From: an uncultured Tepidamorphus sp.
Lineage (GTDB): Bacteria > Pseudomonadota > Alphaproteobacteria > Rhizobiales > Tepidamorphaceae
NCBI GenBank assembly: GCA_905479765.1
Contig: CAJQNW010000136.1
Coordinates: 1-32,835 of the forward strand
Direction of reading: 5' to 3'
DNA: 32,835 bases
Of the stretch, positions 8,081-14,825 are shown one piece after another; within the stretch, counting starts at the first letter, position 1; every line of letters begins with the position of its first letter. The notes beneath the pieces were generated by a model that saw only the letters and a list, made by a program, of their open reading frames with translations, was not told where the DNA came from and did no database searches. A program made the position numbers and the translations under genes.

Positions 8081-9610
8081 ATGAAGGGCATCGTGCTCGG
8101 ATACAATGCCGAGGCCGACGCCATTGTCCTGCGCGGAGACAATGGCCGGCGTTACCGCTTCCAGCCTGCCGACTGGCGCGAGCGAATCTCGCCGCGCAAG
8201 GGCGACCCGGTCGATTTCGAACCGGACGGCGACCATGCGCGCGACGTCTACCTGACCGAATCGGGCCGGCAACTGGAAACCGCGACACCGCCGCCGCCGC
8301 TGGCCATCGTCAGCGACTGGCCGCCCGCGCGGTTCTTCCTGGCAAGGCCGGTTTTTTCGTTCGCCCTGCTGGTGCTGCTCGCCTGTTTGACGGGCGCCTA
8401 TGCCATCGGCGACGTGCGGATTTCGCTTTTCCAGGTGCCCGAACTGATCAGTCGGATGTCGGAGGCACTCGATTCGCTGATTGCCATCTCGGGCGCCGAT
8501 CCCACCCCGCGCCTTGGCGCCGGTGTCGTTCGCGTCCTGTTGATCCTGCTACTCGGCCTCTATGCGGTCCCCATCCTCGCCGCCATGACCGCCTGGCGCG
8601 AGTTCGTCGGCCGGCCCGACCGGGGGCTGGCGCGCATTGCCGGCATCATGGCGCTTGTCCTGCCGCTCGGCCTGCCGCTGCTGATCGCCCTGGTGGTCCA
8701 GTTCTGGGTCCTGCCCGGCATCCCTGATGCCGGGGTCCGGCTGGGACGCTCCGGCGTGACGACCCCGCAGCAGGTGTTCGAGGTATTGCGGCTCTATGCG
8801 ACCGGCACGGTGTTGCTGATGGCCGCCGGCGCGGGCCTGTGGGCGGCCGCTGCCGGGCGGCTCTCCGTGTCGCTCGACATGCGCACGATCGACGAGCCGC
8901 CGCTGGATGTCGTGCGGCCGAAGCAAACCCCGCGCTTCGACGTCTTCGCGCCGCTGCGCAAACGCAAGGGCGCCAGGCCGGTCGCCGCGAAAGCTCAGGC
9001 CGCCCAGCCGGAGCCCGCCGCGAAACCGGCGACCTTCAGGCAGGCGGTCAAAGCGGCAGTCGCGACCCCGGCCGCGGCACACCGATCCAGGCCAGAGGCG
9101 GACGCGCCCGGCGAACCGCCGCCGCTGCCACGCAAGAGCGTTCCTGCTGGCAACTCGGGAGACGATTCCGAGCCGGTTCCCTTCTTGAAACTGGGCGTCA
9201 GACCGGTTCCGGTCGCCGATCAGCCGCGCGCGCCGCAGGTCAGTGCGGACACGAAAGGAGAAGAGGTGCCCGTTTCCAGCCTGCCGGTTTCTGAGCCGAC
9301 CGTGCCGGAGGCAGCCCCGTCCAAACCGCCGATATCCGAACGCCCCCGGTCGGAGCCTGACGGCACGGTGGATGAGGTAAGTTCGGAAGACCTGGCCGAC
9401 GACATCATGTCGGCGCTCAAGTCGGACGTTCCGGATTCCAAGCCGCCGCTACCGCAGACGAAGGTGCCGCCGGCCGATGTCGAATTGCCGCCACGTGGCG
9501 GATCGGTCTGGCCGGAGCCCGCCGGCGCGCAGCCGCGCCATCGCACCGCTCGAGATCCGGCGCCGGATGAAGATACGCAGCCGGATGCGGTCGCCGATCA
9601 GAAGCGATAG
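8081..9610 (+). CDS. Cold-shock-like (OB) domain fused to a four-helix membrane protein with Pro-rich tail
   Basis: This 509-residue protein has three parts. Residues 1-57, from [20 protein letters not shown] to the segment ending ARDVYL, resemble the cold-shock-like OB domain that precedes small membrane modules in many alphaproteobacterial proteins. Residues about 85-265 hold four hydrophobic helices (near 86-111, 147-172, 183-212, 240-265). The last 240 residues are low-complexity, rich in Pro, Ala, Ser and acidic residues, with a basic patch near 285-300, and are probably disordered and cytosolic. GGGGAG lies upstream of the start. Its stop overlaps the end of the convergent chemoreceptor gene by 13 bp. 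The role is unknown; a membrane-tethered nucleic-acid-binding or scaffold function is only a guess. Confidence 0.75.
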
Positions 9611-11394
9611 GCCATTCGCATGCCGCCCCAGTGCCGTCCGAAGACCGAGATCGGCGCGTCGACCTCCTTCATCATGACGACCTGGCCATTGCCCATGTCG
9701 CGGGCGTAGGACTGGACGAGGAAGGGGCGGGTATTGCGCGCCGCGCTCAGGCCGGCACGGTCGTCGAAGATGCGCCGGTTGCGGCAGTTGCCGGTGTTCC
9801 ACATCGGATCGCCGGCGCGCTGTGGCTTCGAATAGATCTGGTTGTGGACCGGCAGATAGCCGTTCCGGTCGACGGCCGCACAGAACACCATCTGCGGATC
9901 GGATTGCAGCGCCGGTTCCAGGATATCCGGCAGGATTCGGTCGAAGGTATTGAGATAGCGGGTCTCGAACTGCTGCGGGTCCGCGCCGGAAATCGGCCGG
10001 TAGTCCAGATCGAAGACGTCGTCCGCCGTCAGGTCGCCGGAGCTGATGGCGGATTCGATGGCCGCGGACGCGGCGTCCGCCGCTTCGATCGCGCGGTCGA
10101 TGAGAACCGCGTGCCGCTGCCTGATCTCCGCGACCTGTTCGCGCAGCCGCGTTTCGGTTTCGCTGACGTCGGGATGCAGCGCGAAGTTCAGGCCGAACTG
10201 GCTGGCGCCGATCAGTTTGGCCGGCACGTGTCCGACCCCGGTGACGTCGAGGTCGAAGTCGCTGCCCGGTTTCGGCAGCCAGCCCTCGATCGGTTTCAAG
10301 GTCGCCGCCACCTCCGACAGATCGATTGTCGTCGTTTCGCGCGTCCTGGCACCGTCCTGGACCGCCACCCGAATTTCGGCCGGCAGCCGGTCGAGCGCGC
10401 CGTTGTCGCCGGCATCCGTCTGGCGAAGCAGCATGACGACCCTGTGGTCCAGCGCGTCGATGAAGCCGCCGAGACGGCCGCATTCATCAAATGCGCTGGC
10501 GCCGACTTCGGCGACCTCGGCGGTCGCTCCGTCGATCGTCGCGACCCGCCCGGCGACCTGCGAGACGAATTCCGCCGTGCTGCCGGCGGTTTCGTCCAGC
10601 GTTTGCGACGTCGAGACCTGTGTATCGACCGCTGAGGCGACGGCATCGAAAACAGGGCCGAATTCGGAAATGATCTCGGCGATCCGCCCGACCGCTTCGA
10701 TGCTCGCTTCCGCCGTCTTTTGCAGGACCGCGATCTTGCCGGCGATCTCCTGCGTTGCGTCCCGGGTGGCGACCGAGAGCGATTTCACCTCGCCGGCGAC
10801 AACCGCGAAGCCGCGGCCGGCCTCTCCGGCGCGCTCGGCCTCGATCGTCGCATTGAGCGCGAGAAGGTTTGTCTGCTTGGCGATCGAGGCGATCAATTGC
10901 ACCACCTCCTCGATTTCGCCCGAAGAGCGCTTGAGTTCGGCGACCCGGCTGGTCGCGTCTTCCGACAGGCCGGTCGCGCGAGCGGTCATCGCGGTAGTCT
11001 CCTCGACACGGCCGCGTATGTCGCCGCTCGACGAGGCCAGCTCCCTGATAGCCGTTGTCAGCGACTGGCTGTGGTCTCGCGCCGTTTCCGCCATGTCGGT
11101 CAGCGACGAAGTCTGCTGCCGGACGCTGTTGGCAAGATCCACCTTGCGTGAGATCTGGCCGCTCAGTGAGGCTGCGTGATCGACGACATCGCGGAGTCTG
11201 GCCATGATTTCGGCTTCAAGAAGTGACGACGTCTGGCTGATGTCCATGCCGGTCGTCACGCGGCTGCCGGCGCCGGACCCGGGTTCGTCGCCCGCCGTCG
11301 CCCGTTCCATATCCTCATCGGGTTCGGACAGGACCGGTTCAGCTCGTTCAGCCTCGGCCCGCGATCCGATTGCCCGTAAGGCATTTCCAAACAT
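9598..11394 (-). CDS. Soluble methyl-accepting chemotaxis protein with PilZ-like and C-terminal sensor-like regions
   Basis: This 598-residue protein has no membrane segment. The chemoreceptor signalling hairpin lies at about 160-215, with the conserved tip [20 protein letters not shown] and [14 protein letters not shown], which bind CheA and CheW in the family. Flanking helices (about 60-160 and 215-325) form the coiled coil. Residues about 336-407 look like a PilZ domain (TIDLS...GSDFDLDV...GLNFAL), but the c-di-GMP-binding Arg motif is not clear. The remaining 180 residues end in a conserved-looking block with [18 protein letters not shown] and [11 protein letters not shown], reminiscent of a Cache-type sensor placed behind rather than before the signalling hairpin. 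It probably reports a cytosolic signal to a chemotaxis array or related complex. It faces the DUF2336 genes across an AT-rich gap. Confidence 0.88.
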
Positions 11395-11760
11395 TGGCCA
11401 CTTCCCCCAACGTCGATCTCCGGTTACGGAAAGCGCTTATAGGTCGCATTGATTTTCATCTCATTAAGTATAACGGTATCGATTCGAGGTGGGTGCCGGC
11501 GTTATTTCGAGAGACGTTGTATTTATTAAATAAAATTCGACACGGCGTGATTTGTTACCCGGCGAAATGGAGTTATTGCGAGAATCCAGGGGAATACAGT
11601 GACTCGTCAAATAGTGCGATCCGCGCACCGCTTCCGAGTAAATAAATTTTTATGCAACTCGAAAGCCGAATTTTCACGCCGCGCATTTATGCATATTGGC
11701 ACAAGAAGGATAGGCAGCGATGCGCTCCTTCACTTGGGATTTACTTAAGTGGGGCGAAGA
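11395..11760. other. AT-rich intergenic region between the divergent chemoreceptor and DUF2336 genes
   Basis: This is a 366-bp gap without a convincing gene. Its base composition is strikingly AT-rich for this genome, with TTTATTAAATAAA (palindromic) near 11523-11535. On the minus strand a TATAAG (11441-11436) could be the -10 of the chemoreceptor. On the plus strand a loose TTGTTA...TATTGC pair with 16-bp spacing lies at 11552-11579. A short open frame from 11370 has no site or protein-like composition. It probably holds both promoters and perhaps a binding region for an AT-seeking regulator. Confidence 0.55.
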
Positions 11761-12843
11761 ATGGACATGATCGAGGACCTGGTCGCGCTCTCGCACGATC
11801 CCTCCCCTGACAAACGCCGGCAGTTGCTGCGCGGCGTGGCGGACATGTTCCTCGACGACATCGAAACCTACACCGACCGCTCGCTGGTCCTGTTTACCGA
11901 CGTGCTGACCGATCTGCTGAAGCAGGTCGACGAAACCACCCGCGCCGAAATTGCCGAGCGGCTGTCGGACGCGCCGAACGCCGGCGAGGCGCTGCATCTG
12001 TTTCTGGCATACGACGATCCCGACGTCGCCGGGCCGGTTCTGCGCAACTCCAGGGTTCTGAGCGACGAAGCGCTGGTCGACATCGCCGAGACCAAAGGGC
12101 AGGCGCACCGGTTGGCGATCGCGATGCGTGATCATCTGACCGAGACCGTGACGGATACGCTCATTTCCAAGGGCGAATCGCCGGTTCTGAAGGCAGTGAC
12201 GAACAACTACGGCGCGGCGATTTCGGACAACTCCTTCATGAAGCTGGCCGACCATGCCAGGTCAGACGACGGTCTGCTGGACGCGATGTCGTACCGCGCC
12301 GACATGCCGCGACAGGTGGCCGACAACGTCCTCAGTCTGATGCCGGAAGACGCGCGGATCCGGCTTGGCGCCCTTCTGGCGGCCGATCGCGACGCGGTTA
12401 GGCCGCTGATGGAAAAGGCCGCTGATCTGACGAAGCGCAAGAAGATGGGTCGTGCGCTCGAGCGCCTGGAGACCAAGGGCCTGATCCGGCAGATCCGCGA
12501 TCACGAGATGAACTTCGACGAGGTTCTGCTCTGGCTCGCCGACCGCGACCGCATCCTCGACCTGGCGCTGGTCCTGAGTGAGTTCTCGAAGGTCGACGAG
12601 GCCCTGGCGACAGGCGCGATCCTGAAGGTGAACGCGGCGCCCGTGGTGATACTGCTGCGATCGCTGGACGTCGGCGAGGAAGCGGTGAAATCCCTGGCCA
12701 ATCTTCGCTGCCGGCGCCTGAACCTCCCGCGGACGATGGCCGATCACATGCTGGATCGCTGGGCCGAGCTCGACGAAGCCACGGCGCAGCGCGCACTGCG
12801 GTTCACGCTGGCGCGCAAGTCGGCGCAGCTTGACGCCGCGTAA
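11761..12843 (+). CDS. DUF2336 domain-containing protein (first of two paralogues)
   Basis: This 360-residue, mostly alpha-helical soluble protein has no signal peptide or membrane segment. It matches the DUF2336 family, a group of unknown function largely confined to alphaproteobacteria. Blocks shared with the neighbour at 13094 include SPDKRRQLLRGVADMF, SYRADMP, KGLIRQIRDHE and RRLNLPRTM. The regular helical pattern suggests HEAT-like repeats, which usually bind partner proteins. The start at ATG 11761 has GGGG about 6 nt upstream; a second ATG at 11767 is possible. It stands divergent from the soluble chemoreceptor and upstream of a receiver-like protein, hinting at a signalling role (inference from context only). 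Confidence 0.82.
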   Translation: MDMIEDLVALSHDPSPDKRRQLLRGVADMFLDDIETYTDRSLVLFTDVLTDLLKQVDETTRAEIAERLSDAPNAGEALHLFLAYDDPDVAGPVLRNSRVLSDEALVDIAETKGQAHRLAIAMRDHLTETVTDTLISKGESPVLKAVTNNYGAAISDNSFMKLADHARSDDGLLDAMSYRADMPRQVADNVLSLMPEDARIRLGALLAADRDAVRPLMEKAADLTKRKKMGRALERLETKGLIRQIRDHEMNFDEVLLWLADRDRILDLALVLSEFSKVDEALATGAILKVNAAPVVILLRSLDVGEEAVKSLANLRCRRLNLPRTMADHMLDRWAELDEATAQRALRFTLARKSAQLDAA

Positions 12844-13093
12844 TTATTTTTGCCCGCGGTGATTGCGGCGACATTCTGGATCGCGCAATGCGGCTATGAA
12901 CCCGGTAGCCGGTTGATCGCGTTGTGTTTCGTCGCGACGCGTCGGCCTGACGTCGGGGCAGCGTTGCCTCGGAATTATCCCGTTTCTTGGCCTTTCCGGC
13001 AGTGGTGGCGAGTACGAACAGTTTGCCAATTTACTGAACTTTAAGTGGAAATGCGCTCTAGTTGCCGCCAATCAGAATGGTGGAGCGCCCGGC

Positions 13094-14155
13094 ATGATGG
13101 CCTCGCTTTTAGTGCTTGCGAAAGAGACCTCCGGCGACAAGCGCCGCGAGCTTCTCCGGTCGATGGCGGATCTGTTCATCGATCGCGAGCAGGACTACTC
13201 GGATCGTGAACTGGTGCTGTTCGGCGAGGTCATCGGCGACCTGCTCGACCAGGTCGATCTGGATGGCCGGGTCGAGTTGTCCCGCAAGATCGCCGATTGC
13301 GATCGCCAGACCGGCGACCTGCACCTGCGGCTCGCCGAGGACCGGATCGAGGTCGCCGAGCCGGTGCTGCGCGACTGCTCCCTGTTCGACGAGGACACCC
13401 TGGCGGAGATCGCCGGCCGCCAGTCGCAGGACCACCTTTACGCGATTTCCCGCCGCGGAAGTCTCGGTACCAAGGTGACCGATGTGCTGGTCGACCGCGG
13501 CGAAAAGCGCGTCGTTCGGGCGGTGACCAACAATCTTGGTGCAGAGATATCGGACGAGTCGTTCAACAAGATCCTCGACAAGGCCGCCGACGATCCCGAA
13601 TTGCAGTCGGCCGTGTCCTACCGCGCCGACATGCCCCTGGAGATCGCCGAGCGCGCGTTGAAGGTGCTGCCTCCGGAAAAACGCGACCGGCTGGTCGCCC
13701 TGATGGCCGAGGAACCCGATACCGTCACCGCGCTGGTCGGCAAGGCCGACGCCTCGACCAGGCAACTCAGGCTTGCCCAGTCGCGCCGGCGCCTGCAGAC
13801 GAAGGGGCTGATCGTCCAGATCAGGGAGAACGAGATCGACCTGGATTCCGTGCTGGTCCTGCTGGCCCGCGAGGACCGGTATCAGAACATGGCGCTGATC
13901 CTCGCCGAGTTCGCGCGCATGAAGGAAAGCGTCGTGCTGAACGCATTGTTCAAGGTCGACGATGGGGCGATCGTCCTCCTGCTCAAGGCGCTCGGCGTGA
14001 CCGAACCCGCGGTCAAGGCCATTGCGCAGTCACGCGGGCGCAGACTCAATCTGCCGGCCTCCATGACGGACCGGCTGGTCGCGGCCTGGCGCGAAGCGGA
14101 TGCGCTGACGGCCGACAAGGTGATGACACTGAGCCGGTTGCGCGCCAGGGGGTGA
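13094..14155 (+). CDS. DUF2336 domain-containing protein (second paralogue)
   Basis: This 353-residue paralogue of the preceding gene is of the same length and helical pattern. It shares SGDKRRELLRSMADLF, a TNNLGAEISDESF block, SYRADMP, KGLIVQIRENE and RRLNLPASM. The two are clearly an old tandem duplication: the core blocks match, while the first 100 residues and the surface positions have drifted. A GGTGGAG lies before the ATG; a second ATG follows directly. A 250-bp gap separates it from the first copy, so it may have its own promoter as well as read-through. No enzyme motif is visible; a protein-protein interaction role is likely but unproven. Confidence 0.82.
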   Translation: MMASLLVLAKETSGDKRRELLRSMADLFIDREQDYSDRELVLFGEVIGDLLDQVDLDGRVELSRKIADCDRQTGDLHLRLAEDRIEVAEPVLRDCSLFDEDTLAEIAGRQSQDHLYAISRRGSLGTKVTDVLVDRGEKRVVRAVTNNLGAEISDESFNKILDKAADDPELQSAVSYRADMPLEIAERALKVLPPEKRDRLVALMAEEPDTVTALVGKADASTRQLRLAQSRRRLQTKGLIVQIRENEIDLDSVLVLLAREDRYQNMALILAEFARMKESVVLNALFKVDDGAIVLLLKALGVTEPAVKAIAQSRGRRLNLPASMTDRLVAAWREADALTADKVMTLSRLRARG

Positions 14156-14172
14156 TCCCGGGGCGGGTGTGC

Positions 14173-14237
14173 TGGACGGGCGGAATGGACGGGCGTACTG
14201 GACGGGCAAACTAGGTGGGAAAACTGGACTGAACGTC
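14173..14237 (+). repeat. 13-bp tandem repeat, five units, upstream of the receiver-like gene
   Basis: The unit TGGACGGGCGGAA is followed without gap by TGGACGGGCGTAC and TGGACGGGCAAAC, then by two decayed units (TAGGTGGGAAAAC and TGGACTGAACGTC). The period of 13 is not a multiple of three, so it is not a coding repeat. It lies between the second DUF2336 gene and the receiver-like gene, within the likely leader or promoter of the latter. Confidence 0.85.
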
Positions 14238-14276
14238 GATCCGAAGGTCTCCGGTTCGGCGAGTTTGGGGGATTTT

Positions 14277-14825
14277 ATGCGGACAGGAACGACTAGCCGC
14301 GAATTCGGCGAACTGTCAGCCATGCTCGTCGGAGCGGACGAATACAGCGTCTCGATATTCAAGAACGTCGCCGCCCCGGCTGGAATCCAGAACGTAGTGA
14401 TTATCGACGGCGCCAAGGCGGCACTGGCGAAGATGCGCCATGTCGGCGCGCCCGATATCCTGTTTGCGTATTTCTCCGAGACGGGCAACGAATCCTTGCA
14501 GTTCTGCCGGTTCGTCCGCAACCGGGAATCGTTTCCCCATCCCTTCGTGCCGATTGTCGCGGTGATGGAAAAGGCGACGACTGCGGGCGTGACAGCGGTT
14601 CGCGACGCCGGTGTGGACGAGTTTCTCGTTCTTCCGTTTTCTCAGAAATCGCTTTCGGAAAGGGTTCGGTCGATTTGCCGCGATCGCCGGGGTTTCGTGG
14701 ACGTGCCCGGATATTTCGGCCCCGATCGCCGCCGCGGCGCGATGGCCAAATGGCTAGGCGCCGATCGGCGATCCGAGCCCAGCCGGCTGATCGATCCGGT
14801 CAGCGAAGAAATCTACCTCGGCTAG
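14277..14825 (+). CDS. Receiver-like (pseudo-receiver) protein lacking the phospho-acceptor Asp
   Basis: This 182-residue protein follows the CheY-like receiver fold over residues about 14-135: LVGADEY in place of the acidic pair, APDILFAYFSE where the phospho-Asp should be, then VPIVAVM and DEFLVLPFSQKSL. The phospho-Asp position is Ala64/Tyr65, and the invariant Lys of the KPF motif is Leu119. Ordinary phosphorelay is therefore unlikely, and it may act as a constitutive or ligand-modulated partner. A C-terminal tail with GYFGPDRRRG (145-154), a motif I associate with alphaproteobacterial single-domain receivers, supports the family. The start at ATG 14277 has GGGGA 6 nt upstream; a longer frame beginning at 14169 would translate the tandem repeat and was rejected. 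It follows the DUF2336 pair in the same direction. Confidence 0.75.
   Translation: MRTGTTSREFGELSAMLVGADEYSVSIFKNVAAPAGIQNVVIIDGAKAALAKMRHVGAPDILFAYFSETGNESLQFCRFVRNRESFPHPFVPIVAVMEKATTAGVTAVRDAGVDEFLVLPFSQKSLSERVRSICRDRRGFVDVPGYFGPDRRRGAMAKWLGADRRSEPSRLIDPVSEEIYLG

Follow-up and report, generated by a model that had tools for sequence, protein, structure and literature searches.

A phosphorylation-dead receiver encoded beside two DUF2336 genes in Tepidamorphus, and its possible descent from an Hpt-receiver locus

The window analysed here is a 32,835-nucleotide stretch of DNA from an uncultured Tepidamorphus sp. Three of its genes encode, in order, two paralogous DUF2336 proteins (DUF2336 #1 and #2) and a receiver-like protein without its phospho-Asp. 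We propose, at about even odds (0.5), that these three form one functional unit that does not include the neighbouring soluble chemoreceptor, and that a former phosphorelay is now a constitutive, phosphate-free interaction module in which a DUF2336 solenoid would bind the receiver tail. A fuller history is offered more tentatively. A phosphorelay between a histidine phosphotransfer (Hpt) protein and the receiver may have been demoted to a phosphate-free adaptor pair, both sites being lost together and both proteins kept; the receiver would have switched from a DUF2336 protein resembling SpbR to a duplicated second type, whose solenoid binds the Arg-rich tail. The proposal starts from what is directly observed: the gene positions, the residue losses, their joint pattern over the eight genomes of the family, and the conservation of the tail.

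The dead receiver and the core locus

Most aligned relatives of the window receiver begin near the ATG at 14277, so this codon is most likely the start, and it is preferred to the GTG at 14169. The protein aligns full length with canonical receivers. It scores 15.3 bits against the Pfam model PF00072 (Response_reg), below the gathering cut-off of 30.2 (E 0.023), and its two genus relatives score 26.2 and 26.4 bits, also under that cut-off. The phospho-Asp is replaced by Tyr, the acidic pair by Gly and Ala, the Thr by Met and the Lys by Leu. The protein is left without the residues of a phosphorylatable response regulator (acidic pair, Asp, Thr/Ser, Lys), as had been noticed at first reading for the Asp. 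Among 28 aligned receivers the phospho-Asp is kept in 26, the exceptions being the window copy and that of G154 from the same family; the other 26 all hold D, T/S and K, and 25 of them the acidic pair. A tail of YFGPDRRR or near-identical sequence is found on the aligned receivers, save three short ones and one with a different end. Mean identity among the five dead receivers of the family is 75% in the tail and 36% in the body, while for seven canonical receivers it is 64% in both. The degenerate receiver as sole query retrieved no related loci in named genomes.

Canonical relatives of this receiver belong to an order-wide locus, here called the core locus, in which NAD kinase, receiver and Hpt genes face a gene for an SpbR-like DUF2336 protein and one for an SLT-domain protein. 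Its receiver carries the YFGPDRRR tail, and the locus has kept most of its phosphorelay residues. In the order sample (61 genomes), receiver matches occur in 58 genomes, many of them generic. The 64 stronger matches come from 35 genomes, and 13 of them have a DUF2336 gene no more than 3 kb away, against 0.4 expected; this proximity is found in 12 of the 34 genomes having both genes, and 12 of the 13 pairs are convergent. Of the 80 loci in named genomes that match the canonical receiver best, 75 hold receiver, Hpt and DUF2336 and 59 add NAD kinase and SLT; these loci are not independent, because most come from Bradyrhizobium or other Xanthobacteraceae-like genomes. Outside the order, among the matches listed, the DUF2336-receiver link occurs in two genomes of one family (G004, G140), and in G121 the two genes are about 4 kb apart. 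Adjacency of receiver and Hpt is wider than the DUF2336 link, being found at 16 of 29 loci of the class. The motif His is present in 21 of 25 Hpt profile matches, the exceptions being L060, two family remnants and one weak match; the Pfam score of one core Hpt, 23.9 bits, is slightly below the cut-off of 24.6. The conserved receiver-Hpt-DUF2336 locus provides a concrete, testable set of partners for SpbR-like proteins, including those of named Bradyrhizobium and Rhodoplanes genomes.

Eight genomes of the family were compared, among them the three of the genus (the window's own, G000, with G204 and G205). The order DUF2336 #1, DUF2336 #2, receiver, aldehyde dehydrogenase is found in 3/3 genus genomes, the dehydrogenase gene being 3′ of the receiver gene. 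A dead receiver lies away from the core locus in G000, G204, G205, G206 and G154, and in all of these except G154 (4/5) it adjoins a window-type DUF2336 gene, with a 4-bp overlap of the two gene calls in G206. None of the five receivers retains the phospho-Asp (Y, K, R, H and N stand there), the second acidic residue or the Lys. In the same five genomes the Hpt-like protein of the core locus has Glu in place of His; that of the window genome has E, A and R at the H, K and G of HxxKG, departing from the motif, and scores 17.0 bits against the Pfam Hpt cut-off of 24.6. Four of the five show no receiver at its former place. In G000, G204 and G154 the Hpt-like gene comes immediately after NAD kinase. 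In G206 another gene stands 5′ of the Hpt-like gene, and the 5.2-kb contig holds no receiver. No other close relatives of the receiver turned up in the five genomes (G000 and G205 are 85-86% complete). In G201 and G202 (2/2) the core-locus receiver has kept D and K along with the second acidic residue, and the Hpt its His. The core locus of G203 lacks both genes, and no receiver adjoins a DUF2336 gene in that genome. Core and dead receivers are mutually exclusive in 7/8 genomes, with two core, five dead and G203 neither. In the core DUF2336 tree G201 and G202 fall outside the other six (support 84/94), and therefore one loss of phosphorylation suffices. Two further receivers of the family also depart from Asp and have no adjoining DUF2336 gene: L334 (G201:C13:31777-32172), with G, and L338 (G203:C37:60298-60579), with E.

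The DUF2336 proteins

Both window proteins are members of DUF2336 (PF10098), with 144.7 bits (E 4.5e-42, #1) and 146.6 bits (E 1.2e-42, #2) against a gathering threshold of 34.6, and they cover profile positions 1-262 and 1-256 of 262. The family, taken at first to have no assigned function, does have one named relative, SpbR of Caulobacter (Wang & Bowman 2019, as it stands in the reference list of PMC12700997), with NCBIfam model NF052659. The window pair reaches 101.4 bits (E 5.6e-29) and 102.2 bits (E 3.2e-29) on this model, far under its equivalog cut-off of 400. Two core-locus proteins, L064 (E 1.7e-72) and L054 (E 5.4e-71), match it nearly full length with 244.5 and 239.6 bits, also below 400. 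SpbR and the proteins studied here are of one superfamily; all matches fall short of the cut-off, however, and in a tree of 119 DUF2336 proteins the core-locus type and the window pair form separate clades, that of DUF2336 #1 including G000, G204, G205 and G154. SpbR works at the cell pole by way of PopZ, and it is solely this kinship that suggests, by analogy, a possible polar function here. The PopZ-like family DUF2497, which we take to be PopZ, was found in 7/8 family genomes, the exception being the draft of the window genome.

DUF2336 occurs widely in the class (in 78 of 142 genomes sampled, and in 45 of 61 of the order sample) yet is little studied. Our literature searches found no paper on DUF2336, COG5330 or PF10098, and searches of titles and abstracts found none on the window locus or the receiver-Hpt-DUF2336 locus. 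Within three genes of the core-clade members (n=34) we find a receiver in 14 cases, Hpt in 18, NAD kinase in 17, SLT in 23 and a chemoreceptor, or methyl-accepting chemotaxis protein (MCP), in 0. For window-type members outside the family (n=46) the corresponding numbers are 6 for receiver, 0 for Hpt and 1 for MCP. The MCP profile of this count is narrow; a search with the window's MCP signal domain agrees. The link between DUF2336 and a receiver, at first drawn from position only, is supported for the SpbR-like type by the named loci and for the other type by four of the five dead-receiver genomes. Among immediate neighbours of window-type genes (86 of 87 scanned, one running to the locus end being excluded), the commonest of the 25 families listed out of 133 are ArsR-type HTH (8/86) and methyltransferases (7/86). 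At L108:6958-8892 and L128:1794-5543 a window-type gene lies near genes for an ArsR-methyltransferase, methylenetetrahydrofolate reductase (MTHFR) and B12-dependent methionine synthase (domains of three genes checked), which may hint at a connection with methionine or one-carbon metabolism. A third clade (L053, L055, L182, L184, L188) appears to recur in a neighbourhood particular to it, with nearby genes of about 720-760, 190, 183 and 240-280 aa, and is present also on contig C343 of the window's genome. Four long DUF2336 frames hold no further Pfam domain above cut-off, whether receiver or other, and viral contigs scanned with core DUF2336 gave no match.

DUF2336 #2 is predicted to be an almost all-helical solenoid of 22 helices with a predicted local distance difference test (pLDDT) score of 93.1. 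The model aligns to PR65 and armadillo proteins, the best PR65 match having Z 10.9 (guide value for a repeat about 13), a root-mean-square deviation of 5.2 and 223 aligned residues; Foldseek gave no match at E <= 0.001. The N-terminal 80 residues match engineered or designed proteins by profile, consistent with the solenoid prediction, and apart from two such proteins no solved relatives were found by profile at E <0.01. A scaffold role for the DUF2336 proteins, as first supposed, would fit the predicted HEAT/ARM-like solenoid.

Origin and possible function of the unit

The ancestral form would be the order-wide core locus. There the Hpt protein is most likely the phosphate donor (or drain) of the receiver, whose reader would be the DUF2336 solenoid. 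This arrangement is like an Hpt-response regulator phosphorelay in pairing a canonical receiver with an adjoining Hpt-like protein, but in five family genomes both partners are without the phosphorylated residue. In some members of the window's family the receiver would have moved from the core locus to a place beside the second DUF2336 type, and receiver and Hpt would then both have lost their phosphorylation sites, with both genes open and conserved. The surviving phosphate-independent contact would be binding of the solenoid(s), most likely by the receiver's Arg-rich C-terminal tail. The solenoid(s) may hold the receiver, perhaps at the pole or another site in the cell, and receiver amount may replace phosphorylation as the control; binding, localisation and output of the unit are all putative. 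Atypical or pseudo-receivers are a known class, and the window protein is like them in aligning with receivers and having no phospho-Asp. It differs in that the Asp loss of its lineage coincides with a loss in the putative phosphate donor and, in 4/5, with an adjoining second-type DUF2336, and in that the tail rather than the body is conserved. The lineage would serve as a naturally occurring knock-out for the phosphate step, separating the role of phosphorylation from that of tail and scaffold.

The case for presumed orthology of dead and core receivers is made by their exclusive distribution and by the fact that His and Asp are lost together. Trees neither show nor reject a common origin: approximately unbiased (AU) tests that place dead and core receivers together give p 0.289, 0.681 and 0.245 in three data sets, and with the long-branch G201 (D to G) or G203 (D to E) receiver as sister of the dead ones p is 0.36 and 0.318. 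These values weigh against our proposal, and so do several other observations. The degenerate G201 and G203 receivers have no adjoining DUF2336, so that Asp loss is not tied to DUF2336, and the dead receiver of G154 likewise stands without one. Loss is partial, with the first acidic residue retained in 4/5 dead receivers and the Thr lost in 4/5, Ser standing there in G206. NAD kinase is absent from the contig of the G206 Hpt-like gene, and the G205 contig, which ends 289 bp short of its Hpt-like gene, does not reach the former place of the receiver. Outside the family, the core-locus Hpt of G184 (L060:7865-8371) has Ile at the His place beside a canonical receiver. Response_reg is found on only 2/86 immediate neighbours of window-type DUF2336, giving no receiver link outside the family. 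Finally, the Z of 10.9 may reflect only a common arrangement of helices.

A separate origin of the dead receiver is the alternative that fares best, although we consider it unlikely. The protein would be a paralogue, for example a class-wide standalone receiver or kin of the degenerate G201 and G203 ones, recruited to the DUF2336 pair, and the core receiver-Hpt loss would be a separate decay. The trees leave room for this, G201 and G203 do have degenerate receivers away from DUF2336, and receiver-Hpt pairs are class-wide. Against it stand the exclusive distribution in 7/8 family genomes and the Hpt-like gene, which the five have kept and conserved instead of losing.

Still less probable is that the receiver and Hpt-like genes are drifting, functionless remnants retained by chance. 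The low identity of the receiver bodies and the absence of both genes from the G203 core locus would suit such decay. So would the ratios of nonsynonymous to synonymous rates (dN/dS, by NG86) between G204 and G205, 0.443 for the receiver and 0.549 for the Hpt-like gene. Between G000 and G204, however, they are 0.275 and 0.268, alongside 0.150 for DUF2336 #1, 0.288 for #2 and 0.133 for aldehyde dehydrogenase; the receiver and Hpt-like figures are rough because dS is about 1 or more for both genes. The reading frames are open in 5/5 dead-receiver genomes, the tail is conserved (75% identity) and the operon-like order is kept. The two genes are not obviously pseudogenes.

The chemoreceptor and other features of the window

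Table 1. Features of the unit and of the adjoining chemoreceptor, in window coordinates
Feature	Position	Strand	Remarks
Soluble chemoreceptor (MCP), 598 aa	9598..11394	-	MCP signal domain in Pfam; divergent to DUF2336 #1; probably outside unit
MCP signalling domain, aa 145-291	10522..10962	-	Pfam E 4.3e-26
MCP PilZ-like domain, aa 342-406 (model-delimited)	10177..10371	-	Alignment and Foldseek
MCP conserved C-terminal domain, aa 457-598, weakly Cache-like	9601..10026	-	dCACHE E 3.4e-3
DUF2336 #1, 360 aa	11761..12843	+	Pfam; paralogue of #2, 43% identity
DUF2336 #2, 353 aa	13094..14155	+	Pfam; predicted HEAT/ARM-like alpha-solenoid
Phosphorylation-dead receiver, 182 aa	14277..14825	+	Active-site residues replaced; ends YFGPDRRRGAMAxxLGxDRRS
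Receiver C-terminal tail, aa 136-182, Arg-rich, conserved part	14682..14822	+	Tail versus body identity

The first-pass annotation placed four signalling genes together at 9598-14825, with the DUF2336 paralogues as a divergent pair. All four genes are present and the paralogy holds; the DUF2336 genes are in tandem, the MCP alone is divergent, and the MCP probably falls outside the unit. No domains of a histidine kinase, cheA or cheW are listed in the Pfam scans of the 27 called window genes (E cut-offs 0.1, 1e-5, 1e-3 and 1e-3), in agreement with that annotation. The genes come from a simple codon-usage caller, by which small genes may be missed or wrong; its errors include one false antisense gene in G204 and the receiver-DUF2336 pair of L067 (G148), which went uncalled and was found by the search.

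The MCP is membrane-free with extra domains, as first described: no stretch is hydrophobic enough for a membrane helix (maximum KD19 1.31), and the PilZ-like domain resembles PilZ structures by Foldseek (E 9e-5). Soluble MCPs with a PilZ domain are a known kind, and the motifs of PilZ receptors for cyclic di-GMP are RxxxR and (D/N)xSxxG. The window MCP shares the signal domain and the PilZ-like fold with that kind, but departs from it in the motif residues, with NGALDR instead of RRRxDR immediately ahead of the domain and DLSEVA instead of DLSxGG, and it does not qualify as a cyclic di-GMP receptor by these motifs. The residues are altered differently in the G154 copy and kept in 7/8 other aligned copies with the domain. 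This change parallels the loss of receiver sites. MCP matches over >500 residues occur in ten other genomes of the order, and only that of G154 adjoins a DUF2336 match.

A single pathway of chemoreceptor, DUF2336 pair and pseudo-receiver, the latter competing with CheY, is very improbable: in G000 and G154 the MCP gene diverges from DUF2336 #1 and encodes altered PilZ motifs, matching the altered sites of the receiver, but the MCP is full-length in only 2/8 family genomes, does not occur at the locus in G204 or G205, and lies within three genes of DUF2336 in only four examined loci (the window, L050, L079 and L130), while the receiver's relatives are often paired with Hpt. Membership of the MCP in the unit was rejected on its distribution, and the role of CheY competitor on the frequent Hpt pairing of its relatives together with the absence of che genes among those called in the window. 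The check by gene order proposed at first reading gives a divided answer, with MCP-DUF2336 order confined to close relatives and receiver-DUF2336 order conserved further for the SpbR-like type; for the window type outside the family it turns out negative.

One match with a single mismatch to the CtrA-like site TTAA-N7-TTAA lies 5′ of DUF2336 #2 (13030); it is not taken as evidence because the window has 2 such matches against 0.72 expected. Adjoining the MCP gene, positions 8081-9610 encode a membrane protein with hydrophobic stretches and no Pfam match, which is kept in G154, G204 and G205.

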